From Microbacterium yannicii (lineage in GTDB: Bacteria; Actinomycetota; Actinomycetes; Actinomycetales; Microbacteriaceae): a stretch of DNA of 64,000 bases. The notes under the pieces were generated by a model. The model ran no database searches. It was not told where the DNA came from and saw only the letters and a program-made list of their open reading frames with translations. Shown in pieces: positions 19,094 to 24,390 of the stretch; position 1 is the first letter of the stretch; every line of letters begins with the position of its first letter. The DNA is taken from assembly GCF_024055635.1 (NCBI RefSeq), contig NZ_JAMXMB010000006.1, forward strand, positions 124,001-188,000. Direction: 5' to 3'. Both the position numbers and the translations under genes were made by a program.

Positions 19094-19267
19094 GCGTTCA
19101 TCCTGGCATGCGGCTCCGACCCCCGCCGAGGCGGGATGCGACATCCGCCGTTCACCTGCGCGACGGATGCCGGTCGCCCGGCGGGCCCCGTCGCGTTCAC
19201 ATCTCGCGCCCACCGTGGGGAGACAGCAGTGAGCCGTCCGCACGGCACCGCTGGGAGAGGAGGCGTC

Positions 19268-20197
19268 ATGGGTCGCGAAGACGTGCTGGCGTGGGTGGAG
19301 TCGCCCCTGCAGCTGATCGGAGCCGCAGAGTGGGCCGCCGCCCACCGCACCACCGTGCCGGTCGCCGGGCGCCTGACGCCGCAGATCTCCGCCACCGCCG
19401 ACGAGCTGCTCGCGCGCGGCGCGCGCTTCGGCGAGTTGGAGCCCTACCTCGGCATCCCGTGGAACCTGCTCGCCCGCCATGGCCACTGGCTCGTGGGCGA
19501 CGGGTTCTCCGGCCAGTTCCGCCTCGCAGCCGCAGTGCTCCGGCCGCATCGCCTCACGTTCCTCGACGACGGGGCGTATGCGATCGCCTACGCCGACGCG
19601 CTCCTCGGCCGCCGCCCCTACGCTCGCCCGCACGTCGCAGAGCGGGGTCTGACCACGCTCGTCGCCCCGTTCGCGGCCGAACTCGTCCACCGCCGCGCCG
19701 CCGCCCGCAACGTCGAGATGTTCACCGCATTCGACCTGGGCGCCGACCGTCTCGAGGCTCTCGCCGACCGCGGGTTCGGCGTCCGTCGCCATGATTTCTC
19801 GTGGACGCGCGCCACCGCGCCCGCGGCGGCGACGCTGGGCCGGCGCATCGTGCTCGGCAGCGCGCTGCCGGTCGACGGGCGCATGATGCTGCTCGACTAC
19901 GTGCGATGGGTGAGGGATGCCGCGGCCGGCGGTGCCGTGTACCTCCCGCACCGCCGCGAGACGCCGGAGCAGCTGGACGCGGTCGCAACGGTGCCCGGGC
20001 TGCGGATACACCAGACCGGGCTGCCGGTGGAACTCGTGCTGGCCGGGGCGCGGCATCCGCTCGATGTGCACACACTGCCGTCCAGCACCACCACCACCCT
20101 CCCGCTGGTGCTCGCGGGGACCGGTGCGACCGTGTTCACCGACGTCGTCGGGGCGAACGGGCGCGCACGCCGCTCGGCGCGGACGGCGGCCGCATGA
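19268..20197 (+). CDS. Polysialyltransferase-family glycosyltransferase
   Basis: 309 residues. The N-terminal VLAWVESPLQLIGAAEWAA resembles the opening of alpha-2,8-polysialyltransferase family proteins (SPLQ motif), and HPLDVHTLPSSTTTTLPLVL near the C-terminus resembles the donor-binding HP and SS/T motifs of bacterial sialyltransferases. It probably transfers a sialic-type sugar from its CMP-activated form to a surface glycan. The ATG at 19268 has a strong GAGAGGAGG site. It is first in a four-gene operon and overlaps the cytidylyltransferase by four bases. Exact sugar and acceptor are unknown. Confidence 0.82.
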   Translation: MGREDVLAWVESPLQLIGAAEWAAAHRTTVPVAGRLTPQISATADELLARGARFGELEPYLGIPWNLLARHGHWLVGDGFSGQFRLAAAVLRPHRLTFLDDGAYAIAYADALLGRRPYARPHVAERGLTTLVAPFAAELVHRRAAARNVEMFTAFDLGADRLEALADRGFGVRRHDFSWTRATAPAAATLGRRIVLGSALPVDGRMMLLDYVRWVRDAAAGGAVYLPHRRETPEQLDAVATVPGLRIHQTGLPVELVLAGARHPLDVHTLPSSTTTTLPLVLAGTGATVFTDVVGANGRARRSARTAAA

Positions 20198-21447
20198 GCG
20201 AGGTGGTGGCGATCATCCCGGCCCGCGGCGGTTCGAAGGGCATCGCGCGCAAGAACCTGCAGCGGGTCGGGGGTGTGCCGCTCGTCGCGCGCGCGGTCGA
20301 CGCCGCTCGCCGGTGCCCGGCGATCGACAGGGTCGTGGTGACGACCGACGACGCCGAGATCGCGGCTGTCGCCGCCGAGTGGGGCGCCGAGATCGTCGAT
20401 CGGCCGACCGGCCTTGCGGGCGACGAGGCGCGCAGTGAGACAGCACTGCTGCACGCCCTCACCACCCTCGAAGCGCGCAAGGTCGACGTGAGCGTGGTCG
20501 CCTTCCTGCAGGCCACCTCGCCCTTCATCGACGTCGAGGCGCTCACCACCGCGGTGCAGCTGGTGCGCTCGCGACGCCGCGACAGCGTCTTCTCGGCGGT
20601 CGAGACGTACGGCTTCCTGTGGGAGAAAGGCCTCGGCGGCGCCGCCGAGCCCGTCAACCATGAGATCGACGTGCGCCCGCGCCGGCAGGACCGCGAGCCC
20701 CACTACCTCGAGACCGGCGCGTTCTACGTCGTGCGCGCCGCCGGCTTCCGCGCCGCCGAGCACCGGTTCTTCGGCAGCGTCGGCATCGCCGAGGTCGACC
20801 CGCGCACGGCGATCGAGATCGACACGCCGCACGAGCTGGACCTCGCGCGGCGCCTCGCTCCTCTCGTCGACGGCGGCGCTCGTGACCGCGCGATCTTCGT
20901 GGACGCGGTCGTGACGGACTTCGACGGCGTCCACACCGACGACACCGTCCGCGTGGACCAGAACGGCCTCGAGTCGGTGACGGTGAGCCGATCGGACGGC
21001 ATGGGGGTCTCACTGCTGCGAGCCGCCGGCATCCCGTTCCTCATCCTCTCGACGGAGGCCAACCCCGTGGTCGCCGCGCGTGCCGGCAAGCTCGGCGTCG
21101 ATGTGCGGCAGGCCGCCACCGACAAGGCCGCGGTGCTGTGCGAATGGGCCGCGGACCGCGGCATCCCGCTGTCGCGCATCGCCTACCTCGGCAACGACGT
21201 CAACGACCTCGCCTGCCTCGAGCTCGTCGGCTGGCCCGTCGCCGTGCCCGACGCCCACCCGCTCGTCCTGTCCGCCGCACGCACCGTGCTCGACAGCCCG
21301 GGGGGCGAGGGCGCCGTGCGCGATCTCGCCGAGCGCGTGCTGGCCGGAGCGCCGTCCGCGGCCACGGGTGCCCAACGGGCCGGCGAGCCCGCCGGGCGAC
21401 GAGTCGCAGCATCCGATCACCCCACCGCACCACTGGAGGCCTCATGA
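20194..21447 (+). CDS. neuA: Bifunctional CMP-sialic (nonulosonic) acid synthetase / HAD phosphatase
   Basis: 417 residues. Residues ~1-225 are an acylneuraminate cytidylyltransferase with AIIPARGGSKGIARKNL, VVVTTDDAEIA, FLQATSPF and RPRRQD. Residues ~235-390 are a HAD phosphatase like the C-terminus of animal CMAS and KdsC, with D242-x-D244 in TDFDGVHTDD, Thr/Ser in ILSTEANP, K311 and GNDVNDL (D335, D338). The HAD catalytic residues appear intact. The architecture and several local stretches match my recollection of human CMAS. A hydrophilic tail of ~30 residues ends the protein. It overlaps both neighbours by ATGA. Confidence 0.9.
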   Translation: MSEVVAIIPARGGSKGIARKNLQRVGGVPLVARAVDAARRCPAIDRVVVTTDDAEIAAVAAEWGAEIVDRPTGLAGDEARSETALLHALTTLEARKVDVSVVAFLQATSPFIDVEALTTAVQLVRSRRRDSVFSAVETYGFLWEKGLGGAAEPVNHEIDVRPRRQDREPHYLETGAFYVVRAAGFRAAEHRFFGSVGIAEVDPRTAIEIDTPHELDLARRLAPLVDGGARDRAIFVDAVVTDFDGVHTDDTVRVDQNGLESVTVSRSDGMGVSLLRAAGIPFLILSTEANPVVAARAGKLGVDVRQAATDKAAVLCEWAADRGIPLSRIAYLGNDVNDLACLELVGWPVAVPDAHPLVLSAARTVLDSPGGEGAVRDLAERVLAGAPSAATGAQRAGEPAGRRVAASDHPTAPLEAS

Positions 21448-22316
21448 CCGTCACCATCGGATCCCGCGTCGTCGGCGGCGGACGCCCCGCGTACGTCATC
21501 GCCGAGATCGGGCTGAACCACAACGGCGACGTCGAGCTCGCCAAGCGCCTCATCGACGTCGCCGCGGATGCCGGTGCGGACGCCGTGAAGTTCCAGAAGC
21601 GCACGCCCGAGATCGCCACCCCCGAGCACATGCGCGACATCCCGCGCGACACGCCCTGGGGACGCATGACCTACCTCGAGTACCGCCGCCGCGTCGAGTT
21701 CGACCGGGATCAGTACATCGAGATCTCGGATCACGCGCTCCTGCGCGGGCTCGAATGGTTCGCATCGCCCTGGGACGTGCCGAGCGTCGCCTTCCTCGAA
21801 GACCTGGGTGTCGCCGCCCACAAGGTCGCGTCGGCGTCGCTGACCGACGTCGAGCTGCTCGAGGCGCTGCGCGACACCGGCAAGCCCGTCATCCTGTCGA
21901 CCGGGATGTCGACGAGCGAGCAGATCGATGCGGCCATCGAGGTGCTGGGCACCGACCGCCTCGTCCTCATGCACGCCACCTCGACGTACCCGATGGAGCC
22001 GGAGGAGGCCAACATCCGGATGATCCCCGTGCTGCGCGATCGCTACCCCGGGGTGCCGGTCGGGTACTCGGGACACGAGCGGGGCCTCCAGATCTCGCTC
22101 GCCGCCGTCGCGCTCGGCGCCGTGGCCGTGGAGCGGCACATCACGCTCGACCGCACGATGTGGGGCTCGGACCACGCCGCATCGCTCGAGCCAGCCGGCC
22201 TGCAGCATCTGGTGCGCGACATCCGCGTCATCGAGGCCGCGCTGGGCGACGGCGTCAAGCGCGTGTACCCCGGTGAGCTCGCCCCCATGGCGAAGCTGCG
22301 CCGCATTCCCGCGTGA
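21444..22316 (+). CDS. neuB: N-acetylneuraminate synthase-family protein lacking the SAF domain
   Basis: 290 residues forming the TIM barrel that condenses PEP with an N-acyl-hexosamine (or its 6-phosphate). Motifs are AEIGLNHNGDVELAKRL, ADAVKFQKR, ILSTGMST, LMHATSTYPMEPEEANIRM, VGYSGHERGLQISLAAVALGA split over two strands, and ERHITLDRTMWGSDHAASLE. The protein stops at KLRRIPA, where the C-terminal antifreeze-like SAF domain would normally begin; usual length is about 340-360. The insert DTPWGRMTYLEYRRRVEF resembles synthases that use phosphorylated substrates. It overlaps both neighbours by four bases. Confidence 0.9.
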   Translation: MTVTIGSRVVGGGRPAYVIAEIGLNHNGDVELAKRLIDVAADAGADAVKFQKRTPEIATPEHMRDIPRDTPWGRMTYLEYRRRVEFDRDQYIEISDHALLRGLEWFASPWDVPSVAFLEDLGVAAHKVASASLTDVELLEALRDTGKPVILSTGMSTSEQIDAAIEVLGTDRLVLMHATSTYPMEPEEANIRMIPVLRDRYPGVPVGYSGHERGLQISLAAVALGAVAVERHITLDRTMWGSDHAASLEPAGLQHLVRDIRVIEAALGDGVKRVYPGELAPMAKLRRIPA

Positions 22317-23683
22317 GGGCGCCTGCGGGCGGCGACGCCAGGCTGCGTGTCGTCGCGATCGCCGACACCGACTCGTATGTGAAGTGGTCGGCGGCGATCC
22401 TCGGCGGGCTGATGGTCCGCGACGGATCGGAGCGGTGGGATGCCGCACTGCTCGTGCTCGAGACACCCCTGGTGGTCAGCGACGGCCAGCTCGCCTCGGC
22501 GCTCAGCGGCAGCCGCCTGCCACGGGATCGGGTGGAGCGGATCGCGTACAGCCGGCTGATCGCACGGCTGACGGAGCTGCGCGCCGATGTCGTCGTCATC
22601 GGTGCACGGGGACCGCTGGTGCGCGTGCTCGCCCGCGACATCGCCGCCATGCCCGGGCGGCCGGTCGTCGTGACGGGACTCCCGGGCATCTCGATCCCGG
22701 CGACGCGCCGGGCCGTCGTCTACCGGCTTCAGTGCGACCTGTTCGTCGTGCACTCGAAGCGCGAGGTGCGGGAGTTCCGGGCGCTGTCGGCGCGCACCGG
22801 CTACGCCCACCGCTACGCCCTGGCCACCCTTCCCTTCGCGCGGGGCGCCCGGGTGACGGGGTCAGGCACCGCCGCGAGCGCCGAAGGTGGCGGCGACCTC
22901 GTGTTCGCGGCGCAGGCGAAACTGCCGGCCGAGCGCGCGGACCGCCTGGCCGTGGCACGGATGCTGGTGCGCGCGGCGGAGGCGGATCCGTCGCGGCGCG
23001 TCGTGGTGAAGCTCCGCGCCGCGACCGGCGAGCACCAGACCCACGTCGAGCAGGACGGCTACCCGGAGCTCCTCGCGTCGCTCGGCCCGCTGCCGCCGAA
23101 CCTCGTCACCTCGACCGCCCCCATGCGGAAGGCTCTCGCGACCGCGGAGGGCCTCGTCACGGTAAGCTCCACCGCCGCGATCGAGGCGATCGCCCGCGGC
23201 ATCCCCGTCATCGCGCTCGACACGTACGGCGTCTCGCCGCAGCTCATCAACGAGACTCTCGCCGACGCCGATCTGCTCGCAGGCGAGGCGGATGTCGTCG
23301 CGCGCCGGTTCCGGCATCCCGATCCGGAGTGGCTCGACGAGAACTACTTCCACCCGCCCGAGGACGACGACTGGACCGACCAGCTGGCGGATCTCACGGC
23401 CCAGCGGTCTGCCGGCCGGCTGCCGCCACGGACCGGGTTCGTCCGGCGCGGCGGCGCGCTGCGCGACGCGTGGGAGCGCCGGGTCGCCCTCGGACGCGCC
23501 GACACGTCGGCGGCGGGCGCGATCGCGTTTGCGGTGGGGGTGCCGCTGCGGACGGTGGCGCGGCTGGTGCACCGGGTGCGCCGCGTCGTCGCGGGGGAGG
23601 CTCAGCAGCCGGGACCGGTGGGATCCTCGACGCAGGTGCGATCGACCAGCGCGGTCCGCACCTCGACCACACGCACGTCGTAG
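22313..23683 (+). CDS. Putative glycosyltransferase (DUF6716-like)
   Basis: 456 residues with a GTG start overlapping the synthase stop (GTGA). The middle and C-terminal parts look like a GT-B fold: TGLPGISIP, LVFAAQAKLPAERAD, VVKLRAATGEHQTH, then VSSTAAIEAIARGIPVIALD and the DTYGV segment, a donor-binding-like pattern. No membrane segment. The last ~28 residues are Ser/Thr/Arg-rich and are encoded antisense to the end of the next gene, so the conserved part may end earlier. Likely the second transferase of the sialic-acid-type operon; the activity is inferred mainly from context. Confidence 0.78.
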   Translation: MRAPAGGDARLRVVAIADTDSYVKWSAAILGGLMVRDGSERWDAALLVLETPLVVSDGQLASALSGSRLPRDRVERIAYSRLIARLTELRADVVVIGARGPLVRVLARDIAAMPGRPVVVTGLPGISIPATRRAVVYRLQCDLFVVHSKREVREFRALSARTGYAHRYALATLPFARGARVTGSGTAASAEGGGDLVFAAQAKLPAERADRLAVARMLVRAAEADPSRRVVVKLRAATGEHQTHVEQDGYPELLASLGPLPPNLVTSTAPMRKALATAEGLVTVSSTAAIEAIARGIPVIALDTYGVSPQLINETLADADLLAGEADVVARRFRHPDPEWLDENYFHPPEDDDWTDQLADLTAQRSAGRLPPRTGFVRRGGALRDAWERRVALGRADTSAAGAIAFAVGVPLRTVARLVHRVRRVVAGEAQQPGPVGSSTQVRSTSAVRTSTTRTS

Positions 23684-24390
23684 CCCGCAGCCTGGGAGCG
23701 AACAACGCCCGCCACAGGGCGCCACGTTCCGCTGCCGAAGTCGACGGATGCCGCGTACTCGACGGTCACCGACACCGGGTAGGTGCCGCGGTCCCGGTAG
23801 GCATGGCTGGTGGGCGTCGGGGTGAACTGCCCCTGACCGAGGCTCGTCCACGACGACCCGCCGGTCGCTGACCGGGTGGTCGTGCCGTCGCCGTTGTCGA
23901 ACACATACGCGACCGGGACGAAGCGCACCGTGACGTCCCAGCCGAGCACCGTGCCCGGAATGCGCTCCTCGGATGCCGCCGCCAGCAGATTCGTCGGCAT
24001 GCCGACGACGCCGAACCCGGCCGGCTCGCCCGCGACCGTCGGCGGTGTCGGACGGAAGGAGGCGAGGTCGGCGAGCGTCACGTCAGGCGCCGCATCGGTG
24101 ACGACGGTGAAGCCGCCACAGCGGTTGAGGGGGCCGCAGTCCCTGGGTGAGGGGGTCGGGGTCGGCCGGTTGGAGGTTCCCAGGTCGACTGCAGGTCCAC
24201 CGCCATCCCTAGTCTCGGACCCGGCCTCCGTCTGAGTCCCTGCGACGTCCACACCACTGCCAGAATCGTCGATTGTGCAGGTCCAACCGGCGGGATCCGC
24301 GCAGCCCGGTATGGCAGCTATTGCCTGTGACGCAGTCGAGGCGATCATCGTTGCGAGAGCCGCCGTGATCAAAGATTGTGCTACCCGCAC
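23602..24390 (-). CDS. Secreted PKD-domain protein
   Basis: 262 residues. A signal peptide covers residues ~1-25 (LITAALATMIASTASQAIA). A Thr/Pro-rich linker (NRPTPTPSPRDCGP) follows, and a PKD-like beta-sandwich near residues 150-225 ends in SHAYRDRGTYPVSVTVEY. Cysteines at the C-terminus (RTCVEDPTGPGC) may form a disulfide. GTG start with GGAGA upstream; it overlaps the end of the lipoprotein gene by ten bases. Its 3' end overlaps the convergent glycosyltransferase by 82 bases. The N-terminal half is visibly richer in A/T than the flanks. Function unknown. Confidence 0.82.
   Translation of the reverse strand: MRVAQSLITAALATMIASTASQAIAAIPGCADPAGWTCTIDDSGSGVDVAGTQTEAGSETRDGGGPAVDLGTSNRPTPTPSPRDCGPLNRCGGFTVVTDAAPDVTLADLASFRPTPPTVAGEPAGFGVVGMPTNLLAAASEERIPGTVLGWDVTVRFVPVAYVFDNGDGTTTRSATGGSSWTSLGQGQFTPTPTSHAYRDRGTYPVSVTVEYAASVDFGSGTWRPVAGVVRSQAAGYDVRVVEVRTALVDRTCVEDPTGPGC

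Follow-up and report, generated by a model that had tools for sequence, protein, structure and literature searches.

Among the closest described counterparts of the locus reported here is the SCO4873-4882 region of Streptomyces coelicolor, which comprises teichulosonic acid genes under PhoP control (PMC13011467) and whose polymer consists of galactose and 3-deoxy-D-glycero-D-galacto-nonulosonic acid (Kdn) (PMC11481543, PMC7831098). Here and below, statements from the literature refer to individual passages of the cited articles. SCO4881 has been named NeuB (PMC2367054); in a table for Planobispora rosea, by contrast, the “sialic acid synthase” entry is matched to SCO4880, and that article counts these genes among those activated by PhoP and names them teichuronic acid genes (PMC8269224). 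A route from mannose-6-phosphate (Man-6-P) through Kdn-9-phosphate and Kdn to cytidine monophosphate (CMP)-Kdn has been described for Bacteroides thetaiotaomicron and Prymnesium parvum (PMC6200933). In vertebrates, CMP-sialic acid synthetase (CMAS/CSS) carries a fused HAD-like C-domain whose role is described as unclear (PMC8636478). We analyzed 64,000 nucleotides of Microbacterium yannicii DNA (contig NZ_JAMXMB010000006.1, positions 124,001 to 188,000; “the window”), in which four genes form an operon that is read here, with a probability of about 0.72, as the form that the actinomycete Kdn (teichulosonic acid) module takes in Microbacterium.

The four open reading frames (ORFs) are listed in Table 1. 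As the first-pass annotation of this DNA had described, they are joined by 4-bp overlaps (ATGA, ATGA and GTGA), each start lying inside the preceding stop. Pfam places CTP_transf_3 and HAD domains in gene 2, NeuB in gene 3 and DUF6716, a putative glycosyltransferase family, in gene 4. What can be read directly is this gene set, intact catalytic residues, missing sources of N-acetylmannosamine (ManNAc) and conserved upstream repeats.

Table 1. Features of the proposed Kdn-type operon; coordinates are those of the window.
Feature	Coordinates	Strand	Description
Candidate PHO-box-like region	19139..19205	+	GTTCACC core (19150) and, 45 bp on, GTTCAC (19195), with degenerate 11-nt units in between
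Gene 1	19268..20197	+	Predicted CMP-nonulosonate transferase, GT-B fold, unnamed family; stretches DDG, HR(R) and SS/ST conserved
Gene 2	20194..21447	+	CMP-nonulosonate synthetase (about residues 1-228) fused to KdsC-type HAD phosphatase (about 229-390)
HAD phosphatase domain of gene 2	20878..21363 (approximate)	+	D242, D244, S286, K311, D335 and D338 invariant in 112 aligned proteins
Gene 3	21444..22316	+	NeuB-family, SAF-less synthase predicted to make Kdn-9-phosphate; PF03102, E = 5.2e-79
Gene 4	22313..23683	+	DUF6716 putative glycosyltransferase, GT-B fold; PF20471, E = 1.5e-122

Counts per 80 loci refer throughout to the best 80 of 531 named loci found. NeuA is present in 79 of these and is accompanied by the HAD in 78, the exceptions being L056 (NeuA not found) and L078 (HAD not found). 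Overlaps of 4 bp occur at 30 of 31 junctions between gene 1 and NeuA, at 31 of 79 between NeuA and NeuB and at 65 of 79 between NeuB and DUF6716. Because NeuA, the HAD and the overlaps recur across loci, the arrangement is not due to chance. The closest synthase among these loci, from M. psychrotolerans, is 99% identical. Synthase orthologues were found in 76 of 394 class-level genomes (at least 63% identity), in 6 of the 12 genomes that this sample lists for the same genus, and in 57 of 199 family-level genomes (at least 69% identity; family f1, taken as Microbacteriaceae), leaving 142 without; the 57 include two synthase fragments (G176 and G130). Note that in all genome tallies the genomes are related to one another and kinship is uncorrected. 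The operon is widespread yet patchily distributed in Microbacterium. In a second layout (L047-L107, about 2.2-4.7 kb) a GT2 gene lies upstream of the cytidylyltransferase; a GT2 homologue occurs in 44 of the 80 loci, and in L065, which has this layout, a PF07388 protein follows GT2 at the position held by gene 1 in others. The operon is also present in a record titled Planococcus sp. APC 4015 (L077), where the synthase shares 90% identity with that of Microbacterium; this record is probably a mislabelled or mixed assembly.

For comparison with Streptomyces we used five class-level loci of one genus (L140-L144), which is taken as Streptomyces; these are not the named S. coelicolor sequences. 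All four genes have homologues there, with identities over the matched pieces of 29-34% for gene 1, 44-58% for NeuA, 53-55% for the HAD, 66-68% for NeuB and 30-38% for DUF6716. The HAD of L141 matches PDB chain 3mmz, presumably from S. avermitilis, at 288.7 bits. L141 also holds a PF07388 polysialyltransferase and GT2, and its gene layout is consistent with SCO4877-4882; unlike L141, the M. yannicii genome has no PF07388 match. The likeness to the S. coelicolor region extends to regulation, with PHO-type repeats here and PhoP control there (PMC13011467), whereas gene order differs, the four-gene run here is without GT2, and the product here is predicted from genes. With the B. thetaiotaomicron and P. 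parvum pathway the operon shares a synthase, a phosphatase and a cytidylyltransferase acting in series from Man-6-P (PMC6200933), with the difference that here the last two are in one protein. A surface nonulosonic acid on a free-living actinomycete had been called little described. For Microbacterium, none of the open-licence papers listed in literature searches deals with its nonulosonic acids, judged by titles and abstract starts; in PMC6113628, which contains both “Microbacterium” and “teichulosonic”, two passages concern Kribbella. For actinomycetes in general the statement does not hold, as the teichulosonic acid of S. coelicolor and its genes are published (PMC11481543, PMC7831098, PMC13011467).

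Gene 3 encodes a TIM-barrel synthase domain, with a PF03102 score of 265.5 bits (cut-off 22.1). A SAF/antifreeze domain was not matched in the protein by Pfam or NCBIfam models, and is absent because the 290-residue protein ends after the barrel. The protein was aligned with Neisseria meningitidis NeuB (NmNeuB) and compared at its active-site positions. Sixteen positions were tried, of which F288 did not align; 12 of the remaining 15 are identical, the substitutions being T110 to serine, N184 to serine and N74 to aspartate. Across 151 aligned synthases, a set in which the window gene and a few genomes are represented more than once, 14 of the 15 positions are invariant, all except that of N74. 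Scores fall below the cut-offs of both the N-acetylneuraminate synthase equivalog TIGR03569 (257.7 versus 399.65 bits) and the pseudaminic acid synthase model PseI (TIGR03586; 204.3 versus 340.25 bits). The label “NeuB/NANS-type” given by the first-pass annotation fits the NeuB barrel, but not the SAF domain or TIGR03569. Its description of the operon as “animal-like” is loose: human NANS has an antifreeze domain (PMC13214540), which gene 3 lacks, and passages on mouse CMP-sialic acid synthetase and its fused C-domain describe phosphatase activity as not demonstrated (PMC8636478).

The only other PF03102 match in the M. yannicii genome carries SAF and lies in a second nonulosonic acid cluster (L139; C28: 46500-66400). 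This cluster also encodes a PseB-like Polysacc_synt_2 protein, a PseG-PseH-like protein that combines a GNAT domain with a weak match to Glyco_tran_28_C and, as identified by eye, an aminotransferase and a cytidylyltransferase. Due to its SAF domain and its pseudaminic-acid-like surroundings the L139 synthase is treated as a separate system, whose product in this genome is probably pseudaminic acid or a relative of it.

The product of the operon had been proposed to be N-acetylneuraminic acid (Neu5Ac), made from ManNAc-6-phosphate through Neu5Ac-9-phosphate and activated to CMP-Neu5Ac, which would give a sialylated surface. Membership of the NeuB family and a NeuA-HAD fusion like that of vertebrate CMAS would both suit such a route. 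The genome, however, has no match at E≤0.001 to NanE, to Epimerase_2 (the uridine diphosphate N-acetylglucosamine (UDP-GlcNAc) 2-epimerase family) or to GlcNAc_2-epim, while one type I phosphomannose isomerase is present. A missing epimerase is what is expected if the product is Kdn made from Man-6-P, since that route needs none. For these three families, the absence of an epimerase noted earlier extends to the genome, and a ManNAc-6-phosphate precursor is not borne out. Across the 199 family genomes no association with the synthase was found for NanE (8 of 57 synthase genomes versus 18 of 142 others, Fisher p 0.82) or Epimerase_2 (17 of 57 versus 38 of 142, p 0.73), and 35 of the 57 have neither. 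This argues that a ManNAc supply is not needed, and is not proof of Kdn. Given also the lack of SAF, the TIGR03569 score, and a Streptomyces counterpart region linked to Kdn in print (PMC11481543, PMC7831098, PMC13011467), the Neu5Ac route is considered very unlikely.

The cytidylyltransferase half of gene 2 matches PF02348 (E = 4.8e-23; 82.6 bits, cut-off 22.6), and residues P9, R11, K20, N21, Q106, R161, R164, Q165, E173 and G175 are invariant among 112 aligned fused proteins (the window protein and 111 ORFs, with the window gene and a few genomes entered repeatedly). In the HAD half the nucleophile pair D242/D244 is intact and equally invariant, so that the reported DxD is upheld, and the DxD, S/T, K and acidic-pair motifs of a KdsC-like HAD phosphatase are present. 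The best PDB chain for this half is 3mmz (7.9e-46). Gene 2 shares its architecture, a cytidylyltransferase with a C-terminal HAD-like domain, with vertebrate CMAS/CSS, and its halves match 1qwj, which we take to be a mouse structure, and 3ewi; the difference is that the HAD catalytic residues are kept here. Chain 3ewi is the mouse C-domain (PMC8636478).

Cytidylyltransferase, HAD and synthase form one open frame at 16 loci in 14 other actinomycete genomes (13 of family f24 and 1 of family f8). These three-enzyme proteins (L120-L126, L128, L129, L131-L133, L136 and L137) have 683-708 residues, and the fusion was confirmed by Pfam in L121. Because of them the HAD can be tied to the synthase and the cytidylyltransferase. 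They agree with the earlier proposals that synthesis, dephosphorylation, activation and transfer fit one operon and that a 9-phosphate intermediate is likely. L023 encodes a cytidylyltransferase-synthase fusion of about 520 residues without HAD. A search for HAD orthologues covered 18 genomes, of which 7 were picked since HAD seemed absent and one, G137, is their genus mate. In these 8 genomes no match (3) or weak short matches (5) were found, yet their synthases are 78-79% identical; the other 10 all gave strong matches.

Because these 8 genomes keep the synthase, the fused HAD is dispensable or replaceable. They would fit a scheme in which the substrate of the synthase is an unphosphorylated sugar, such as free mannose, and the HAD serves a structural role, as has been suggested for the vertebrate C-domain; that mouse C-domain phosphatase activity is given as not demonstrated (PMC8636478) points the same way. 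Set against this are the invariant catalytic residues of the 112 fused proteins and the P. parvum synthase, which among the sugars tested converts Man-6-P only and leaves mannose unconverted (PMC6200933). HAD loss in some genomes would be explained by sugar phosphatase redundancy, which is noted alongside the P. parvum pathway (PMC6200933). We regard the free-sugar scheme as rather unlikely, and read the HAD, on sequence grounds, as linked to the pathway, though replaceable.

For gene 1, neither Pfam (E≤1) nor NCBIfam (E≤0.1) gave a match. Its predicted structure (309 residues, pLDDT 91.9) is best matched in the PDB by the bacterial polysialyltransferase 5wcn (Foldseek E 1.4e-6; VIA-align Z 14.9), followed by other sialyltransferases (Z≤13.0) and other GT-B enzymes (Z≤11.9). 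The likeness to this polysialyltransferase (5wcn/5wc6, named from the PDB entry) consists of the GT-B fold, with a root-mean-square deviation of 4.4 over 274 residues, and a DDG motif, which we take to be a motif of the polysialyltransferase family. Differences are an identity of 10%, a shorter protein and the lack of a PF07388 match. Assignment to PF07388 was rejected, as neither gene 1 nor its 13 relatives gave a match and a profile comparison with two PF07388 proteins gave 0.6%. Four other families hit one member each (E 0.04-0.2), which was judged to be chance. The resemblance to polysialyltransferases is visible in the predicted model at fold level only; of the earlier label “polysialyltransferase-like” the fold part holds and the sequence part does not.

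At E≤1e-5 the gene 1 family (alignment A2) was found in 19 of the 57 genomes with the synthase and in none of the 142 without. The 19 include a 38-residue match (G130, 1.8e-6); two borderline matches (G063 and G182, E about 5e-4) were left out, and with them the tally becomes 19 of 57 versus 2 of 142. In 5 of the 19 genomes the gene is unlinked to the synthase, lying more than 10 kb away or on another contig. PF07388 occurs in 5 of the 199 family genomes, all among the 57 with synthase and none with the gene 1 family. Since the two families occupy separate synthase genomes, they fit alternative CMP-nonulosonate transferases.

Gene 4 scores 409.3 bits against PF20471 (cut-off 27), and its predicted structure has a pLDDT of 85.6. 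The best PDB matches are non-hydrolysing UDP-GlcNAc 2-epimerases (Z 21.8, versus 20.4 for the best UDP-glycosyltransferase), from which one could propose that DUF6716 is an epimerase-like enzyme giving ManNAc, and hence Neu5Ac. The GT-B fold, however, is common to epimerases and UDP-glycosyltransferases, and a profile comparison with two true epimerases was weak (probability 3.9%). In that low-probability alignment the stretches GDTT, HVEAGLR and HRREN, which we assume to be the catalytic epimerase stretches, are not conserved. An epimerase is considered very unlikely, and we read DUF6716, from its modelled fold, as a putative transferase. In profile comparisons DUF6716 resembled neither PF07388 proteins nor gene 1. 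A minus-strand ORF (23602-24390) is convergent with the DUF6716 gene and overlaps its 3′ end by 82 bp.

The Kdn reading, with its substrates, product, activities and transfer specificity predicted from the genes, would run as follows. The SAF-less synthase would condense Man-6-P with phosphoenolpyruvate to Kdn-9-phosphate, the HAD half of gene 2 would remove the 9-phosphate, and the cytidylyltransferase half would convert Kdn and cytidine triphosphate to CMP-Kdn. Gene 1 would then move Kdn onto a wall glycopolymer, and gene 4 may add another sugar or build the acceptor; the product would be an acidic, phosphate-free wall glycopolymer. The genome has three matches to the LytR-CpsA-Psr ligase. 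Phosphate limitation would probably induce the operon through the PhoP-type repeats upstream of gene 1.

Pairs of GTTCAY 44-45 bp apart occur in 22 of the 80 loci, always upstream of gene 1 (22 of the 32 loci with gene 1); other spacings average 0.47. The window also has a pair, at 19150-19200. In the second layout, GTTCACC lies in the 80 bp preceding the estimated start of GT2 at 43 of 44 loci (0.57 expected) and is flanked by TCACC-like copies at -11 in 34 of 43 and at +11 in 32 of 43 (background 2.4%), so that an 11-nt periodicity is clear there. Both layouts, which differ in their first gene, are preceded by conserved direct repeats of 11 nt whose core is GTTCACC; note that the loci behind this conservation are related to each other. 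These tandem repeats resemble the Streptomyces PHO box, and PhoP control is predicted from them. In the window itself the single PHO-box unit is not enriched (5 matches versus 3.04 expected) and the pair is rarer (1 match versus 0.05 expected, reached in 5 of 100 shuffles); for this reason the argument is carried by conservation. A scan found no sigma-70-type promoter. A terminator-like hit inside gene 3, on the opposite strand, was judged to be chance.

Several observations weigh against the Kdn reading, in addition to the 8 HAD-less genomes and the epimerases standing ahead of UDP-glycosyltransferases as the nearest structures to gene 4. The sequence of the synthase does not by itself separate Man-6-P from ManNAc-6-phosphate use, and NanE is held by 8 of the 57 synthase genomes. 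For the cytidylyltransferase half of gene 2 the best NCBIfam model is PseF (TIGR03584), below its cut-off (127.9 versus 205.7 bits). The best HAD model for the other half, KDN-9-P phosphatase (NF058599), is also below cut-off (89.3 versus 180 bits), and in comparisons of single sequences 3e81, presumably a KDN-9-P phosphatase chain, scores no higher (74.1 bits) than the KdsC-type chain 3n1u (75.5 bits). In L056 the cytidylyltransferase gene was not found beside the synthase. As for PhoP control, no clear PHO box or strong tandem repeat was found beside the genes of L140-L144, where the best two-unit scores are 16-18 of 22 and scattered, and the repeats in the window lie in front of a divergent gene as well, judged by eye to be exonuclease-like.

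The kind of pathway is already known from Streptomyces, and the unusual parts are the unnamed transferase family and the informative fusions. On gene evidence, Kdn wall polymers would reach beyond Streptomyces to many Microbacterium and related genera, and the repeats upstream suggest that they share a role in saving phosphate. Tentatively, and as a possibility to which we give somewhat less than even chances, all parts may be joined in one view. Actinomycetes would have one-protein Kdn factories, in which the HAD fused to the cytidylyltransferase, and in some genomes also to a SAF-less Man-6-P synthase, is a working Kdn-9-phosphatase; an active HAD of this kind would represent the ancestor-type condition of the C-domain in vertebrate CMAS, a domain that has kept the fold and lost the reaction. 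Gene 1 would found a new CMP-Kdn transferase family, and phosphate starvation would switch the module on across Microbacterium. The fused HAD may help to explain the vertebrate C-domain, whose role is reported as unclear (PMC8636478), and the bifunctional and trifunctional fusions together with the HAD-less lineages make the former function of this vertebrate HAD domain testable. The family of gene 1, outside existing models and linked to CMP-nonulosonate genes, is likewise open to testing.

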